The position numbers and the translations under genes were made by a program. The notes under the pieces are model-generated. The model did not search any database, was not told the origin of the DNA, and saw only the letters and a list, made by a program, of their open reading frames with translations. A stretch of DNA of 20,184 nt from a virus: the IMG/VR virus record IMGVR_UViG_3300040801_002725, positions 1-20,184 of that record; one strand, given 5' to 3'. Below, piece by piece: positions 7,381 through 17,800 of the stretch. Position 1 is the first letter of the stretch. Each line of letters opens with the position of its first letter.

Positions 7381-7836
7381 TTAACTTATTTCTTCTGCAT
7401 CGGTAATATCTTCGTTCTTTAACGCTTTTAATATATCATTTCTATCAGCAAGAATCACGGCGGTATTGTTCACAGTATCGCCTTGTTTCATCTCAACCTG
7501 TTTTATCGCTACATTAAGTCTATCTTTATGCTCTTTTAAAGATCTCTTTTCTTTTAAGGCTGTGAGAGCTGTATTAAGCATTTGGGCAGAGGTCTCTTGG
7601 GCTCTAGATCTAAAACGAGGATCTATAAGCTCAATCTCTCTTAATTGCTCTCGAGCCGCGTTCACTGATATCGTATACACCTCTTCGAGCTGTCTCTCAA
7701 TCTCATTATCCTTATCATCATACTTTTCATCTTCAACGAGGGTGAGATCTCGAGTCTCATCAATGATCGCGATATCTGTTGTACCTTCTTTGATATCAAA
7801 TACCCTTTCAAGAGGGTGGTTTATATTATTGCTCAT
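7381..7836 (-). CDS. gp16: Terminase small subunit (gp16-like)
   Basis: A 151-residue protein, close to T4 gp16 (164). It has the same plan: an N-terminal acidic arm with a DLTLVEDEKYDDKDNE stretch, a central helical segment (about 48-115; REQLREIELIDPRFRSRAQE and ALTALKEKRSLKEHKDRL) that would make the oligomerisation coiled coil, and a polar C-terminus with a DRNDILKAL motif. gp16 assembles into rings, recognises DNA and stimulates gp17 ATPase. The start ATG at 7836 shares one base with the gp4 stop and lacks a strong ribosome site, pointing to coupling. Its location tail-to-tail with gp17 is unlike T4, where 16 directly precedes 17. The call rests on similarity pattern and context. Confidence 0.8.
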   Translation of the reverse strand: MSNNINHPLERVFDIKEGTTDIAIIDETRDLTLVEDEKYDDKDNEIERQLEEVYTISVNAAREQLREIELIDPRFRSRAQETSAQMLNTALTALKEKRSLKEHKDRLNVAIKQVEMKQGDTVNNTAVILADRNDILKALKNEDITDAEEIS

Positions 7837-8282
7837 TATTTGAATAACTCTTTTTCTGTTAATAATCTAAAGTTAATATTATGTTTCTTACAGAACTGTG
7901 ATGCTGCCTGAAATTTAGCAGAGTTTACAGCGTATGTTATTGTCTCGTATACCTGTTGATTCTTTCTTTTACCAACTCTTCTTGGCATTGATGTTTGCGC
8001 TTTTGGTTTTATCTCTATAAGGTCTTTCTTTAAGTTCCCTCTACGATCCTTGTAGACCATAAAGAAGTCTGGATAGTATTTATGAATCCTATTATCAGTT
8101 GGCTTAACATAAGGAATAGGAAACGGTTCTATAGCCCACTTAATGATATTTGGGTTCTCATCTAAGAACTTACAAAAATGAGCTTCCCACGATGATCGAT
8201 AGAACGCCTTATTTGGGTCTTTAATGTATTTTTCTTTGTTCTTTACCTTATATAAACCCTTTCTTGTTCCCTTTCCATACAT
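7836..8282 (-). CDS. gp4: Head completion protein gp4-like (PD-(D/E)XK fold)
   Basis: A 148-residue protein closely resembling T4 gp4/50 (150). Shared blocks are YRSSWEAHFCKFLDENPNI (28-46), YYPDFFM (69-75), LIEIKPK (88-94) and the C-terminal AVNSAKFQAA...FRLLTEKEL. The Glu33, Asp72, Glu90-x-Lys92 set is the layout of a PD-(D/E)XK nuclease like the TnsA family. In T4, gp4 acts at head completion, before tail joining; a role trimming or sealing packaged DNA is inferred from the fold. It lies between the tail-tube-fold gene and gp16 with start/stop overlaps of 1 base on both sides, in a late minus operon. Confidence 0.92.
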   Translation of the reverse strand: MYGKGTRKGLYKVKNKEKYIKDPNKAFYRSSWEAHFCKFLDENPNIIKWAIEPFPIPYVKPTDNRIHKYYPDFFMVYKDRRGNLKKDLIEIKPKAQTSMPRRVGKRKNQQVYETITYAVNSAKFQAASQFCKKHNINFRLLTEKELFK

Positions 8283-9697
8283 TATGAGAAGAACCCTCTA
8301 GCGGTATTTGCCACGTCATTAGCATAGTTTCTCAAGGCTTTTGCTTGGTTAAAGGCGTTATTTATTGGTGCAGCTATCTCGGATGCCCCTCCAACAATCC
8401 CGGTTACGGCATTTCCGAGAGGCCCGGGAATCTCAAGATCGCCAAATATTCCACCGCCTTCTCCAGTGTTAAACGGGTTATTATTACCTTCAGAAAGTGT
8501 ACCTTGTGTCGCATTAGTTCTTGGATTACGCAAAGGATAAAGACCTCTATTTGTGAGTTGCTCGAGGTTATACTCGCTAGTATTTCCGCGAAAGTAATCT
8601 GTATCTACATGAACGCCGTCATACGCAAATTCTAATTGCATCTCGCCACCTTCACCGCTCTCAGCCATATCAAGATCATTAAGTTCCATATTTAAGATCT
8701 TTGGGTTATAGAACTTATACACGTTCATAAAATTACCTTGCTGATAAACGTGAAAGAGCGTTATACGTTTAAGAATATTTTTCGTCTCTCCGTCTGGCTG
8801 AGGACCTAATGAAGAACTATAAAAATTCTTCGTTTGAGAACGGTTAACATAGTCCATGCTTACTTCTTCATACATCGGGCTATCTTCAATTCGTTGGTCA
8901 AATCTCATGTTAGCGATAGGACTCATCCTACGAAGATACTCGTTGTAAAAGATCATAGAGTTATTTCTGTCGTCGTCAATGAATCTCATCGTCATAGGTT
9001 CGTAAATTGTTTTCTTAGCAACTTTTGTGCGAAAGTTATACATATTAACATCTTCGTATTCAAATTGCACGTGCGGGCGTGTAGATCCTTTAACTACAAA
9101 CGCCATTCCGTCACCAAAGGTTGTTAAGCTGTTATGTAAAGGCGTAAAATCAAATTGAACAACGAATAGAAACTTATACTTAGGTGCATATCTGAGCAAA
9201 TCCATAGCGTACGGCGACGCGTAGCATTGAAGCGAACGTCTACCGTTATCACCGGAGTTTGGCGTGTATATTCCTTTTATTAACTGTTCAAGATTTTGAA
9301 CATCTTGAAAGACGCTTGGGATATCGTCAAACCCAAAATCACCGTTTCTTACCTTATCGGCGATCTGTCGTGCTTGACCTATACCTCTGTTCACAACTCC
9401 AGGATTAAAGTCCTTTGCGAACTCTGCCGCCATTCTACCAACGCCAACGGTGTCTAACACCTCGTTAGTAGCGGTTTCAATATTGTTCCATACCGTTCCA
9501 AGAACGCTTCCTTGTCTAGCGGAATTCGATATACCGCTCAAAGTTCTTAACCCACGACCAATATCACCGAGACCTTCAAGGTTTCCAATCTTCTCAAGAG
9601 CATCAAAGAAGCCTTTCTTCTGCTCCGCGTTCCTTATAGAATCGCCTATGCTTCTTGCGCAGTTTGGTGTTAAGAATGTCCGTGGATCAAGGGCCAT
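8282..9697 (-). CDS. Baseplate tail-tube-fold protein (gp48/gp54-like)
   Basis: The 471-residue protein contains a central tail-tube-like domain (about 165-355): YKFLFVVQFDF, FVVKGSTRPHVQFEYEDVNMY, TMRFIDDDRNNSMIFYNEYLRR and a closing KFYNPKILNMELNDLDM...MQLEFAYDGV. This is the strand order of gp19-type tube proteins and of the baseplate tube proteins gp48 and gp54, which start and cap the tail tube. The N-terminal 160 residues are helical and polar; the C-terminus is Asn/Gly-rich, ending in a helix (NNAFNQAKALRNYANDVAN). I cannot decide between gp48 and gp54. A late promoter lies 29 bases upstream of the start, and it leads the operon with gp4 and gp16. GGAG is about 11 nt before the ATG. 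Confidence 0.6.
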   Translation of the reverse strand: MALDPRTFLTPNCARSIGDSIRNAEQKKGFFDALEKIGNLEGLGDIGRGLRTLSGISNSARQGSVLGTVWNNIETATNEVLDTVGVGRMAAEFAKDFNPGVVNRGIGQARQIADKVRNGDFGFDDIPSVFQDVQNLEQLIKGIYTPNSGDNGRRSLQCYASPYAMDLLRYAPKYKFLFVVQFDFTPLHNSLTTFGDGMAFVVKGSTRPHVQFEYEDVNMYNFRTKVAKKTIYEPMTMRFIDDDRNNSMIFYNEYLRRMSPIANMRFDQRIEDSPMYEEVSMDYVNRSQTKNFYSSSLGPQPDGETKNILKRITLFHVYQQGNFMNVYKFYNPKILNMELNDLDMAESGEGGEMQLEFAYDGVHVDTDYFRGNTSEYNLEQLTNRGLYPLRNPRTNATQGTLSEGNNNPFNTGEGGGIFGDLEIPGPLGNAVTGIVGGASEIAAPINNAFNQAKALRNYANDVANTARGFFS

Positions 9698-13721: not shown

Positions 13722-13955
13722 TTATCGACGCTGTCTTTTTAAACGTTTATTGTCAGCTGCCGTCTTTCTTTCTAAAAATTCACTCACGCGACTCTTCTCA
13801 TACACAGACATATTCATTATCTCAGTGTAACTTATACTTCCTTTCATGTAATATGCTAGTTCTATTGAAGAGTCTATAATGCTCTCGGCTTCCGTTGAAA
13901 AGCGATCAAAAAGATCCTTGATCCTTTGAGGATCCCCGCTCTTCAACGTTACATA
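13722..13955 (-). CDS. -1 frame extension of gp26 (GT-like chaperone tail)
   Basis: Seventy-seven codons in the -1 frame relative to gp26, entered at the TTTTTTT heptamer (13961-13955). The first residues after the slip would be Tyr-Val-Thr-Leu-Lys-Ser-Gly-Asp-Pro. The frame has no ATG until residue 37 and no ribosome site before the TTG at 13946, so independent initiation is unlikely. The sequence is helical (PQRIKDLFDRF, SIIDSSIELAYYMKGSISYTEIMNMSVYEKSRVSEFLERK) and ends strongly basic (NKRLKRQRR). YYMKGSISYTEIMNM-type helices are common in tail assembly chaperones. The fused product would be 411 residues (334 of gp26 plus 77). I propose it is the equivalent of the T part of lambda gpGT, binding the tape measure protein. 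A TTG-initiated separate protein of 74 residues is the alternative. Confidence 0.7.
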   Translation of the reverse strand, partial: YVTLKSGDPQRIKDLFDRFSTEAESIIDSSIELAYYMKGSISYTEIMNMSVYEKSRVSEFLERKTAADNKRLKRQRR

Positions 13956-13961
13956 AAAAAA
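13893..13961 (-). promoter_or_regulatory. Programmed -1 ribosomal frameshift signal
   Basis: In the gp26 frame the mRNA reads ACU UUU UUU AUG UAA, so U-UUU-UUU (13961-13955) is a canonical X-XXY-YYZ slippery site. After a 6-nt spacer (AUGUAA), CGUUGAAGAGCG (13948-13937) pairs with CGCUUUUCAACG (13904-13893) as 12 continuous base pairs with one G-U. The 32-nt interior contains a 6-bp GATCCT-CAA-AGGATC hairpin (13934-13920). Site, spacer and stem all meet the usual requirements. Confidence 0.85.
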
Positions 13962-14956
13962 GTTAAAGGATTCAACGGCGCAGAAGCCTTAGCTATCTTT
14001 CCGCAGTCTTTGCATTGTAAAGACACGTCAAAGTTTACACCCCAGTTTCCAGATTTTTCTAACGCTTCTTCAATCTGATCTATCCACTTACTCTTAATCA
14101 TAGATAACCACTCTGATATAAGACCTTTATCATTGATATCATCAACGCTGTCAATCCTATTAACTAAAATGTCTAGCCATAATCGTTCTTGATTTTCGTT
14201 ATTAACGTTAGGATCTTTTACTGGGGTAGAAGCTACCATTAATTTTATGAATTCTTTAAACCGTAGCGGTGTGAACCGTACTACTTGGCCGTTTTCTAAA
14301 GTAACGCTGAAGCGTTTCTTAACAGTAGTTGGTGCAATCTCTTTGGTATTTGAAATAAAATTGTCAAGATCGAGAACGTAGGAGTGATCGTGCGCGTCTT
14401 TACAGTCGTGTTTGAAGCGAATCTCATACTCTGAACCGTAAGTTACCTTTCTCAGTGCCAGAAGAATCATATCAATATCTTTCTGAAAGAGCTTATCTGG
14501 ATGAATAACCTGTGGAACACATTTTTTAATAACTTTCTTTACAGCTTCGCCGTTTAAGAGTAAGTGAGGGCTTCTCATATTTAAGGCGTCAATGCCAGAC
14601 ATCGCGTGAATCTTTAGCTCGCCGTCTTTAACATCACTATCCAATTCACCATTCGTATAGAGTAAACCTCTTGAAGGAATTCTGTATATTTCTTCGGGAA
14701 TAATAACCCTTTCTAATAGGGGATTGTTTCGTCTCTGTGCTTGCACCGGTTTAGGATCATAATCTTCTTCAAAAAAACTAACACCAGGATTAGAGACTGC
14801 ATCTTCTTCGTGCCTTTCATACTTAATTGCTGGCTGTTCTCTTTTCTTTGCTCCAGGAGGAAGAGCAAATTCTGGAATGGTCTCGTATAATTCATCATGT
14901 GGAACAACGTTAGAAAAACCTTTTGGACCATTCTCTTCTGTAATATCTTTTGACAT
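13949..14956 (-). CDS. gp26: gp26-family tail assembly/baseplate hub protein
   Basis: A 335-residue member of the T4 gp26 baseplate family (T4 gp26 is 208). After a polar N-terminal ~85 residues come the family landmarks: a L/IPSRGLLY-type motif (RIPSRGLLYTNG), the MSGIDALNM block, and KDIDMILLALRKVTYGSEYEI followed by a Cys/His-containing stretch. The C-terminus has Cys315-x2-Cys318 and ends LNPLTFFM. gp26 is classically called a hub subunit, though a chaperone role in tail assembly fits better with the frameshift seen at its end. Its stop lies right after a U7 run that allows -1 frameshifting into a 77-codon extension. It is divergent from the probable tape measure gene, and a late-type promoter precedes it. 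Confidence 0.75.
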   Translation of the reverse strand: MSKDITEENGPKGFSNVVPHDELYETIPEFALPPGAKKREQPAIKYERHEEDAVSNPGVSFFEEDYDPKPVQAQRRNNPLLERVIIPEEIYRIPSRGLLYTNGELDSDVKDGELKIHAMSGIDALNMRSPHLLLNGEAVKKVIKKCVPQVIHPDKLFQKDIDMILLALRKVTYGSEYEIRFKHDCKDAHDHSYVLDLDNFISNTKEIAPTTVKKRFSVTLENGQVVRFTPLRFKEFIKLMVASTPVKDPNVNNENQERLWLDILVNRIDSVDDINDKGLISEWLSMIKSKWIDQIEEALEKSGNWGVNFDVSLQCKDCGKIAKASAPLNPLTFFM

Positions 14957-15022: not shown

Positions 15023-17800
15023 ATGGCAACTGCGGATCTTTCATCATTAAACGGACTAATAGACGCGATACAAAGAAATACACAAGCGGAACAAACCGCT
15101 ATTCAAGAATTGCGAAATATATATAATGCCAAAGGTCGTGGTAGGAATCAAACAGGTGAGAGTAATAGCATACGAGCTACCCAGACTAGGGAGACGAGAA
15201 TACGAGAAGCACAGTTAAAGGTAATTGAGGACAATATAAAGGCGTTTCACGGTCTTAACGAGGCCTCAATAGATTCAATAGCAGCTCTTCGACAGAATGG
15301 AAGATTGTCAGATGCTGCAACTCAAGAATTTGTAAATCAGTTAGACACTCTTTCTCAACAAACCTCAAATCTTTCCGAAGAACAAAGAGACGAAATTGAC
15401 GGTATTAGAGATCTTATTCGCCAGAATGGAATTCAGGAAGAGCATCTCGAAAGAATAAACGATATCACCAGCGATCAGATACGAGCGGATTTAGATGCGC
15501 TTAGAATTCAAGAAGAAACTAATAGAATCCAAGGAAATAATATCGGAGGTTTGTCATCTTTAGGTGAGTCAATATCAGCAGCTGGTGCAAATCTTGGTAG
15601 TTTTAAAACAATAATAGGTCTTGGCAGCGCCGCTCTTAATAGAATGTTTGAGATGGTTGAAAACGCTGGGAGAACACTTGGGCCAAATCTCACTGGCTTA
15701 GAATTAGAAGAATTTGGCGATGTTGTTGAACGTCTTGGAATAAGTCAGACCGAGTATCTTCAAATTGTTGAACAGAATAGAACCGCTCTTATTACTGCTA
15801 CAGGACAGTTAGAAGATTTTAGAGACGTTGGAAGAAACTATATTGATAACTTAGAGCAACAGCGAGACGCGCTCTACGATATAACTGGAAGTTCTACTGA
15901 AGCATCATTCCTGTTCGCTGAGTTATCTAAAACATTAAACGAACAGACGATAGCAGTAACGATGGAAGAGCTCAATGCTCAACTTCAGGGCCCAGACGGC
16001 CTTATCTCTAATATGTCTTTCTTAGCAAAAACGGAAGGTAAATCGATTAGAGAAATGAATGCTATGGTAGATAGCCTGATGCGTTCTAATGAGATGCGGG
16101 CTGTAGGCCTTGGCATGGAGGAAAAAGAAAGAAAGCTAAGAGTTAAGAACTTCTTTGCTTTTGCTGAACAAACTCGCGCTATGGGTATGAGCGTTGAACA
16201 AACTATAGAGTTTCAGCGAGCGATGGCCAGTGCTAACAAAGAGCTGTCAGCAAAAGATTATGTAGATCAAATCGGTCAATTTATATCTGGTGCTTCAGCG
16301 CTAGGTATAGAACAAGAAAAACTTTTAGCATTTAGAGTCGCAAGCTTAAAGCCGCTACAAAAACGATCAGAAGAAGAGATAAAACTCTTGTCTGACGTGT
16401 CTACAGAGGTTGAAAACCGACTTGCTGATGCTCTTGGTGGCGTTGGTTCTTTAACAGACCAACAAGCGATCGCTATGAACTTAACGGCTAGGACTATAAA
16501 TGAAAGAATATCACCATATATGAATTCTGTCGGGGCAGCTGCTTCTGTTGCTGGTAATGAGCATAAGGCACTCTCAGAAGAAACCAGAGAAGTTATTAAA
16601 GCGTACGATCCTTTTAAAGAAGGTTTAGTTAGCGGCGCCGCAGAGTTAAAGAAACACGCAGAGACAGTAAGTGCTATAGCGGGTTCAGAAGAACTTGCTG
16701 GCGGGATGGCAGGTCTTTCGGCAGCAGCAGGAGTAGCTAAAGGAGTTGTTAACGCTGCTTCAACATTAAATGAAATGTTTAGAAGACACGCAGATCCATC
16801 TAGAGGCGGCTTTGCCGCCTCTATTGGAAATAAGACTAAAGGACTAGTTGGCGCTACCGTTAAGGGTGCCGGTGCTCTAGGCGTTTTTGCATTGGCTGCT
16901 GGAGCAGCTACCGACGCCGTCACGGCAATAAGAACTGGAGAGTCTCAAAGTGCTAGCTTTATTGAAAATAACTTTCCCAATCTGTGGGATAAGATGATAG
17001 GCATGGCTGGAACAGATGTAGAAGCGGCAAAAAGTGCGTGGCAATACGTAACAGACGCTGGTTCTAAGCTCGTTGACGGCGTTAAGAATCTAAATAAAGA
17101 TCTCGAGGACGCCCAAAAACGAAGAGTTGACATGGATGAGGCAGAAGCAAGAATAAGATCGCGCGTAGAGAGAAATGATCGGTGGGCTGGAAATCTTGGT
17201 GGCTGGGCTGGTTTTGGTAACAAGTCTCAAGAGGATATAGACGAGATAGTAGCAGAAAAGATGCGCGAGATGTATCCTGATTATGATAAAATTCAAGCGA
17301 CCCGAGCGGCAGAAAACGATCCAGAATTTCAAGCTCAGCAGAATGACGCTTTGGCTCATCTTAATGCTCTTAACGAAGGAACAATAACCGATCCAAGCGG
17401 TGCGGTTACCGGAGTAAATCACCTAGAGAAACGAATAGAAGCCATAGTTGATAACATTAGTTCAGACGGCAAGATCACAATGCAGGAAGAAGGGCATCTT
17501 AAATTCTTGAGATCCGTACAAGAATCTGTTGATAATCTAGGCCAGCTTGATGACGCTAAGGCGCAAGTAGAAAGACAGAATCTTGACACACAATTAAAGA
17601 TTTTAGAAGGAATAATACGTCTCAATAAATCAAATGAAGAGACACGCGATAGGATGGCAGAGAATAGAGATAAACTAGCAGATATAATTCAAAGCATGTT
17701 AAAACAGAACGATCTTACTGAAGAACAAGCCGAATCTTTAAAAGCTATGCAACGAAAAGGAACAATAAGTTTTGGTAACCCTAAGCCGTTTGGTAGATAG
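15023..17800 (+). CDS. Probable tail tape measure protein
   Basis: A 925-residue protein from ATG 15023 (GGGA 8 nt upstream); a TTG at 15008 is in frame but has no ribosome site. The chain is mostly helical and Gln/Glu/Ala-rich, with long coiled-coil segments near both ends (NTQAEQTAIQELRNIYN; LRSVQESVDNLGQLDDAKAQ). About two thirds along is a Gly/Ala-rich hydrophobic region (LGVFALAAGAATDAVTAI). This build matches tape measure proteins, which set tail length and enter the host envelope. T4's counterpart gp29 is 590 residues. A fully helical 925-residue ruler at 0.15 nm per residue would span about 140 nm. It is adjacent to the gp26 gene with the chaperone-type frameshift. Another large virion protein cannot be excluded. 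Confidence 0.6.
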   Translation: MATADLSSLNGLIDAIQRNTQAEQTAIQELRNIYNAKGRGRNQTGESNSIRATQTRETRIREAQLKVIEDNIKAFHGLNEASIDSIAALRQNGRLSDAATQEFVNQLDTLSQQTSNLSEEQRDEIDGIRDLIRQNGIQEEHLERINDITSDQIRADLDALRIQEETNRIQGNNIGGLSSLGESISAAGANLGSFKTIIGLGSAALNRMFEMVENAGRTLGPNLTGLELEEFGDVVERLGISQTEYLQIVEQNRTALITATGQLEDFRDVGRNYIDNLEQQRDALYDITGSSTEASFLFAELSKTLNEQTIAVTMEELNAQLQGPDGLISNMSFLAKTEGKSIREMNAMVDSLMRSNEMRAVGLGMEEKERKLRVKNFFAFAEQTRAMGMSVEQTIEFQRAMASANKELSAKDYVDQIGQFISGASALGIEQEKLLAFRVASLKPLQKRSEEEIKLLSDVSTEVENRLADALGGVGSLTDQQAIAMNLTARTINERISPYMNSVGAAASVAGNEHKALSEETREVIKAYDPFKEGLVSGAAELKKHAETVSAIAGSEELAGGMAGLSAAAGVAKGVVNAASTLNEMFRRHADPSRGGFAASIGNKTKGLVGATVKGAGALGVFALAAGAATDAVTAIRTGESQSASFIENNFPNLWDKMIGMAGTDVEAAKSAWQYVTDAGSKLVDGVKNLNKDLEDAQKRRVDMDEAEARIRSRVERNDRWAGNLGGWAGFGNKSQEDIDEIVAEKMREMYPDYDKIQATRAAENDPEFQAQQNDALAHLNALNEGTITDPSGAVTGVNHLEKRIEAIVDNISSDGKITMQEEGHLKFLRSVQESVDNLGQLDDAKAQVERQNLDTQLKILEGIIRLNKSNEETRDRMAENRDKLADIIQSMLKQNDLTEEQAESLKAMQRKGTISFGNPKPFGR
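16801..16823. repeat. Perfect GC-rich hairpin inside tape measure gene
   Basis: TAGAGGCGGC (16801-16810), TTT, GCCGCCTCTA (16814-16823): a 10-bp perfect stem within coding sequence for SRGGFAAS. No U-run follows on either strand. It stands out in an AT-rich genome and could pause ribosomes or polymerase. Confidence 0.6.

Follow-up and report, generated by a model that had tools for sequence, protein, structure and literature searches.

The gp26-family gene at this locus has a run of seven U residues close to its end, is followed by an open -1 frame, and raises the question whether a single gene encodes both the short and the long form of a tail assembly chaperone. The gpG/gpGT pair of lambda-type phages is textbook knowledge, and T4 is listed as an exception among the long-tailed phages (PMC5009743). 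The stretch of DNA analysed here (the window) comprises the 20,184 bases of an IMG/VR virus record, in which terminase, prohead protease and primase-like genes surround gp26; no second gp26-family place was found within this 20-kb record, which is a genome fragment. From comparison of sequences we infer, with a probability of about 0.93, that programmed -1 ribosomal frameshifting yields two tail assembly chaperones from this locus.

The end of gp26 and the frame behind it

The gp26 gene (335 aa) occupies positions 14956 to 13949 on the minus strand, and its last codons, read directly from that strand, are ACU UUU UUU AUG UAA. The heptamer U UUU UUU (13961-13955) is in phase with gp26, and the UAA stop codon of the 0 frame (13951-13949) lies 3 nt past it, which is the commonest spacing among relatives with such a site (112 of 212). 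A spacer of 6 nt (13954-13949) leads to a probable stimulatory stem-loop at 13948-13893, whose outer stem pairs 13948-13937 with 13904-13893 over 12 bp, including one G-U, and encloses an inner hairpin. The -1 frame (13955-13722) continues for 77 codons to a stop at 13724-13722, so that a slip would give a product of 334 + 77 = 411 residues. Its earliest start-type codon is a TTG at 13946, and neither an ATG nor a Shine-Dalgarno sequence was found for the -1 frame at this TTG. When the coordinates were rechecked on the minus strand, the phase of the heptamer, the spacer, the stem, the length of the -1 frame, its want of an ATG or ribosome site and the 411-residue fusion all proved to be as the preliminary description had given them.

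In-frame U UUU UUY is scarce in the window, with three sites in the 22 listed genes, two of which are inside gp26. The second of these, U UUU UUU at 14777-14771 on the minus strand, falls near codon 60 in an N-terminal extension of gp26 that is specific to the window and poorly modelled, and a -1 slip there would terminate after about 20 residues.

An open -1 frame was rejected as evidence by itself. Such frames are frequent at gene ends in the window because neighbouring genes overlap, and weight was therefore placed on the heptamer, on the missing start and above all on conservation.

The RNA of 13948-13885 folds at -25.2 kcal/mol (z = -3.24), and only 3 of 200 shuffled sequences folded equally well. 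The same tendency was found in the relatives, where the RNA 3' of the heptamer had a mean z of -1.84, the controls giving -0.25 and -0.16 (p ~1e-12), with z below -2 in 38% of the clusters. A stimulatory RNA element of the kind expected for the G/GT type is thus predicted downstream of the heptamer. Across the group the structure is a tendency and not a conserved fold, which counts against the frameshift reading.

According to the scheme that we favour, most ribosomes would reach the gp26 stop and produce a 335-residue, G-like short form, while some would be held up by the stem-loop that lies 6 nt past the heptamer. Paused ribosomes could slip by -1 on U UUU UUU, where both tRNA-Phe would re-pair, and read 77 more codons to give the 411-residue, GT-like form, which is longer by a helical T domain. 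The occurrence and frequency of slippage and the partners of gp26 and of the fusion are the presumed parts of this scheme.

Conservation of the heptamer and of the -1 frame

The relatives of gp26 found by tblastn were jumbo phages of the T4 superfamily, namely XacN1, CM1/RAS14, Atu_ph07, PA5oct, 121Q, RaK2, BF and CBB, and viral contigs scanned with the window gp26 as sole query gave no match. An alignment of gp26 from all jumbo phages was too diverse for scanning and was replaced by four narrower ones. These four viral-contig scans and the fetched records together gave 225 loci, which form 69 clusters at 65% identity; the gp26 stop was in view in 223 of them.

Among the annotated jumbo relatives inspected, all 12 had an in-phase T TTT TTC or T TTT TTT, with a related tail in the -1 frame, and the heptamer and -1 tail were also present in cyanophage Sf-FS3, Rhizobium phage IC12 and Aeromonas phage phiAS5. 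In the survey as a whole an in-frame U UUU UUC or U UUU UUU was found near the gp26 stop in 212 of 223 loci (202 and 10, respectively), where codon use would lead one to expect U UUU UUY at 0.23 per Phe-Phe site; the other Phe-Phe pairs in gp26 took this form in 2 of 27 cases. Every one of the 208 uncut -1 frames was open, for 60 to 83 codons, compared with a median of 10 for the +1 frames. The alignment of gene ends proposed in the preliminary description as a check, for a conserved U-run and a -1 open frame, thus came out in its favour.

Past the stop codon of gp26, the -1 frame was compared in 65 independent pairs, in which substitutions numbered 613, 341 and 1396 at codon positions 1, 2 and 3, and pN/pS was 0.18 in this frame against 1.31 and 1.90 in the other two. 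To judge by these substitution patterns the -1 frame evolves as protein, and the arrangement of heptamer and -1 frame is not attributable to chance. The extension that characterizes the G/GT type, conserved, protein-coding and without a start of its own, was found here. When the tail of the window was searched alone by tblastn, it matched sequences in the equivalent location, either after gp26 or overlapping with it, in CM1, RAS14, XacN1 and Atu_ph07, and more weakly at that place in Phosso and SCTP-2.

The tail could instead be a separate small protein made by re-initiation just past the gp26 stop, with the U-run merely coding for Phe-Phe. In the window a UUG lies 2 nt past the stop (UAA CG UUG), an ATG occurs within the first 15 tail codons in 18 of the 69 clusters, and many tails are annotated as separate ORFs in public records; a UAAUG overlap without heptamer is moreover seen in Cygsa01 and K469. 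Against this, the choice of codons at the heptamer far exceeds Phe-Phe codon use, most clusters have no ATG near the start of the frame, and a start codon with a Shine-Dalgarno core within the first 15 codons was seen in just 1 of 69. Conservation of the -1 frame also begins directly at the heptamer itself, and T4 gp51, discussed below, is truly a fusion of the two domains, so that we regard re-initiation as a very improbable source of the tail.

Slippage of the polymerase on the U7 run, yielding the two forms from transcripts of differing length, would find a substrate in the homopolymer of seven T residues in the window, but 202 of the 212 relatives have T6C, which is short for polymerase slippage. 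Ribosomal slippage is in keeping with the exact codon phase, with the C and with the RNA structure behind the site, and the transcriptional alternative is hardly credible.

gp26, gp51 and the lineages without the heptamer

The window gp26 belongs to the family of T4 gp26 by several measures. It matched PF12322 (T4_baseplate) with E = 3.3e-14 and 53.5 bits, against a curated cut-off of 24.5, and phrog_150 with E = 6e-16, a profile that T4 gp26 and T4 gp51 both match as well. For structural comparison the short form and the tail were folded separately with AF2, from alignments made up of the window and viral-contig rows. The gp26 model (pLDDT 82.7) has a confident core at about residues 80-330, and its best fold matches in BFVD are annotated T4-like baseplate hub assembly proteins, with E down to 1e-19. 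A search of PDB by sequence gave no relevant matches, and the fold of the HK97 gp13 chaperone (2ob9) compared insignificantly with gp26 (E 6.9, probability 0.08, TM 0.44 over the target).

By hhalign the gp26 family was homologous to T4 gp26 over the whole length (96.8%), and profile comparison with the N-terminal 200 residues of the gp51 family gave 97.8%. The tails aligned with the gp51 C-terminus (221-251) at 84.5% with E 7e-6, an E-value from a small search; alignment to the single T4 gp51 sequence by hhalign was weak, and it took four gp51 sequences to make the comparison informative. A tail HMM retrieved T4 gp51 at 5.6e-7, likewise a small-search E-value, and phrog_634 ('baseplate hub assembly catalyst') matched T4 gp51 at 147-246 with 1e-23 and also 11 of 60 tails. 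Sequence homology thus indicates that T4 gp51 is a gp26-like protein fused in one frame to the tail, from which it follows that the short, G-like chaperone would be gp26 and that the long, GT-like one would be its fusion with the tail.

T4 itself is homologous to the window at gp26 over the full length, and its gp51 comprises a gp26-like part and the tail, but it differs in having two divergent genes for the short and long forms and in the end of gp26, TTC TTT GAG TTA CTA TAA, which is without the slippery heptamer. The T4 gp26 and gp51 genes are paralogues on opposite strands (locus L016 of the survey, 7803-9229), and gp51 has the tail in frame. In the Straboviridae a slip site was found in phiAS5, Aeh1 and EniLVp02, and a full gp51 in T4, RB43, phage 31 and an Acinetobacter phage; to judge by their sequences, this family contains both solutions.

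It has been reported that gp51 of cyanophages and vibriophages is without its first ~200 residues and that gp51 is missing only in Aeh1 (Sullivan et al., PMC3037559). Sequence comparison identifies the short gp51 of these phages as the -1 frame, and the 'missing' gp51 of Aeh1 likewise. In Aeh1 a slippery site and a -1 tail are present and unannotated (L021, 3705-3884), and the tail is also wholly unannotated in RaK2 and PA5oct. Elsewhere public annotations begin the tail at arbitrary internal codons, as ORFs of 46-60 aa (L002, L007, L025 and L027). The 32-kb record MG010123.1, titled Staphylococcus phage SAJK-IND, has a T4-type gp26, which suggests mislabelling or contamination.

About seven lineages are without the standard heptamer: T4, Cygsa01, Vibrio K469, ECML-4, L158, L216 and L220-L224. 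L158 has A AAU UUU instead, another standard heptamer, and in Kuttervirus ECML-4 the -1 frame is open with A AUU UUC at the site. L216, which is near the window phage, reads CUU UUU UCA, where a base has possibly been lost or gained. Cygsa01 and Vibrio K469 (the pair L019/L024) both have the UAAUG overlap and no heptamer, and may make the short form and the tail as separate proteins, the tail being started on its own at UAAUG. Five nearly identical viral contigs with a distant gp26 (L220-L224) share AGC UUU UUU UGG; their -1 frame is closed, and a tail-like sequence (E 3.6e-8, from a small search) is found in the +1 (or -2) frame, the odd-frame site lying at about 3180-3475 in L220.

The preliminary description had suggested that a T4-superfamily lineage uses the gpG/gpGT strategy. 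The strategy holds, but not for one lineage, as the site is found nearly throughout the jumbo phages of the T4 superfamily and also in cyanophages and the examined Straboviridae Aeh1, phiAS5 and KVP40-like phages, T4's own group being the exception. We consider it rather probable that nearly the whole T4 superfamily ancestrally used -1 slippage at U UUU UUY and that this was replaced several times, by duplication into gp26 and gp51 in the T4 group, by the UAAUG overlap without heptamer in some lineages and by a +1 (or -2) shift in L220-L224.

Tail assembly chaperones and the candidate tape measure gene

The neighbour of gp26 in the window is a divergent gene at 15023-17800 on the plus strand, encoding 925 aa, and is a candidate for the tape measure protein by position and length. 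The protein had no informative family match, PHROG gave it no tape measure name, and phmmer detected no similarity to the divergent neighbours elsewhere. A long divergent gene stands in front of gp26 in 51 of 55 jumbo-like clusters. In the cyanophage/KVP40-like clusters the order is gp26, tail and long ORF in 10 of 11, as in G-T-H of lambda. The assignment of the 925-aa gene as tape measure is a positional one.

Even if the frameshift is real, gp26 might be a true component of the baseplate hub, with a tail unrelated to tape measure chaperoning. The older literature and the database names call gp26 a hub protein, and genetic data support its place in the hub (PMC3004832), but in the same source gp26 and gp51 also figure among the hub assembly chaperones, and T4 gp51 is described as essential yet not in the virion. 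The hallmark of G/GT is moreover a short and a long form produced through -1 slippage next to a long, tape-measure-like gene, the lambda-like gene order of the cyanophage/KVP40-like clusters agrees with it, and Vladimirov et al. 2022, as cited in PMC10885494, name gp26 and gp51 tail assembly chaperones. A hub component is in our judgement an unlikely identity for gp26, and tail assembly chaperone the preferred one.

The AF2 model of the tail is all helical (pLDDT 92) and resembles, among others, the tape measure chaperone of phage Moogle (probability 0.99, TM 0.69, E 0.41), the gene of which is annotated with a translational frameshift (PMC4319497). In the tail assembly chaperone (TAC) locus of Vandenendeviridae and Andersonviridae, including Pseudomonas phage Adele and Citrobacter phage Moogle, a -1 frameshift takes place on GTTTTT near the end of TAC-N (PMC12846349), and the likeness to the window lies in the slip site and the tail model. 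The cyanophage and KVP40-like phages have gp26 and a 'gp51 baseplate hub assembly catalyst' with T TTT TTC in phase and a tail in the -1 frame, as in the window, but this tail is shorter (~60-68 codons from the slip) and annotated as a gene, and the long ORF lies downstream in the same orientation. The slip site of lambda is G-rich, whereas the gp26 loci use U UUU UUY; their first domain is much larger, with CxxC pairs, and the candidate tape measure gene of the jumbo phages is divergent. With lambda gpG/gpGT a -1 slip comes close to where the short gene ends, the second domain is small and the tape measure gene is adjacent (PMC5009743); the likeness of the gp26 loci lies in the slip, in the small second domain and in a neighbour that is a candidate tape measure gene. 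If lambda is a guide, the tape measure protein would be covered by many copies of the short form and a few of the long one, and these would draw in subunits of the tail tube.

The heptamer, pN/pS, the RNA structure and the homology to gp51 together lend comparative support to the -1 frameshift, to the G/GT analogy and to gp26 as a chaperone, as initially proposed. The last of these is not new in kind, as Vladimirov, Gautam & Davidson had in 2022 already recognized T4 gp26 and gp51 as tail assembly chaperones (cited in PMC10885494 and PMC12846349). To judge by its title, that work favoured a mechanism that is not frameshifting; PMC10885494 describes its scheme as a short gene and a longer fused gene, and in PMC12846349 it is the reference given for poly-T slippery sites of T4-like phages. 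The recoding mechanism is thus of a known kind and the window locus a clear addition to it. What may be new is how widely the -1 site occurs, the different reading given to gp51 of cyanophages and to Aeh1, and the odd-frame clade.

According to the survey, relatives of T4 mostly retain the -1 site and T4's group has divided the two forms between separate genes, gp26 and gp51, which would explain the truncated gp51 of cyanophages and vibriophages and its seeming absence in Aeh1 (PMC3037559). Gene calls would be corrected in many public genomes, and the role of gp26 and gp51 in the control of tail length becomes directly testable. If ancestral slippage is the true history, the 'gp51' of cyanophages would not be a gene of its own, and the puzzle of T4 gp26 and gp51 would be one of escape from recoding by gene duplication.
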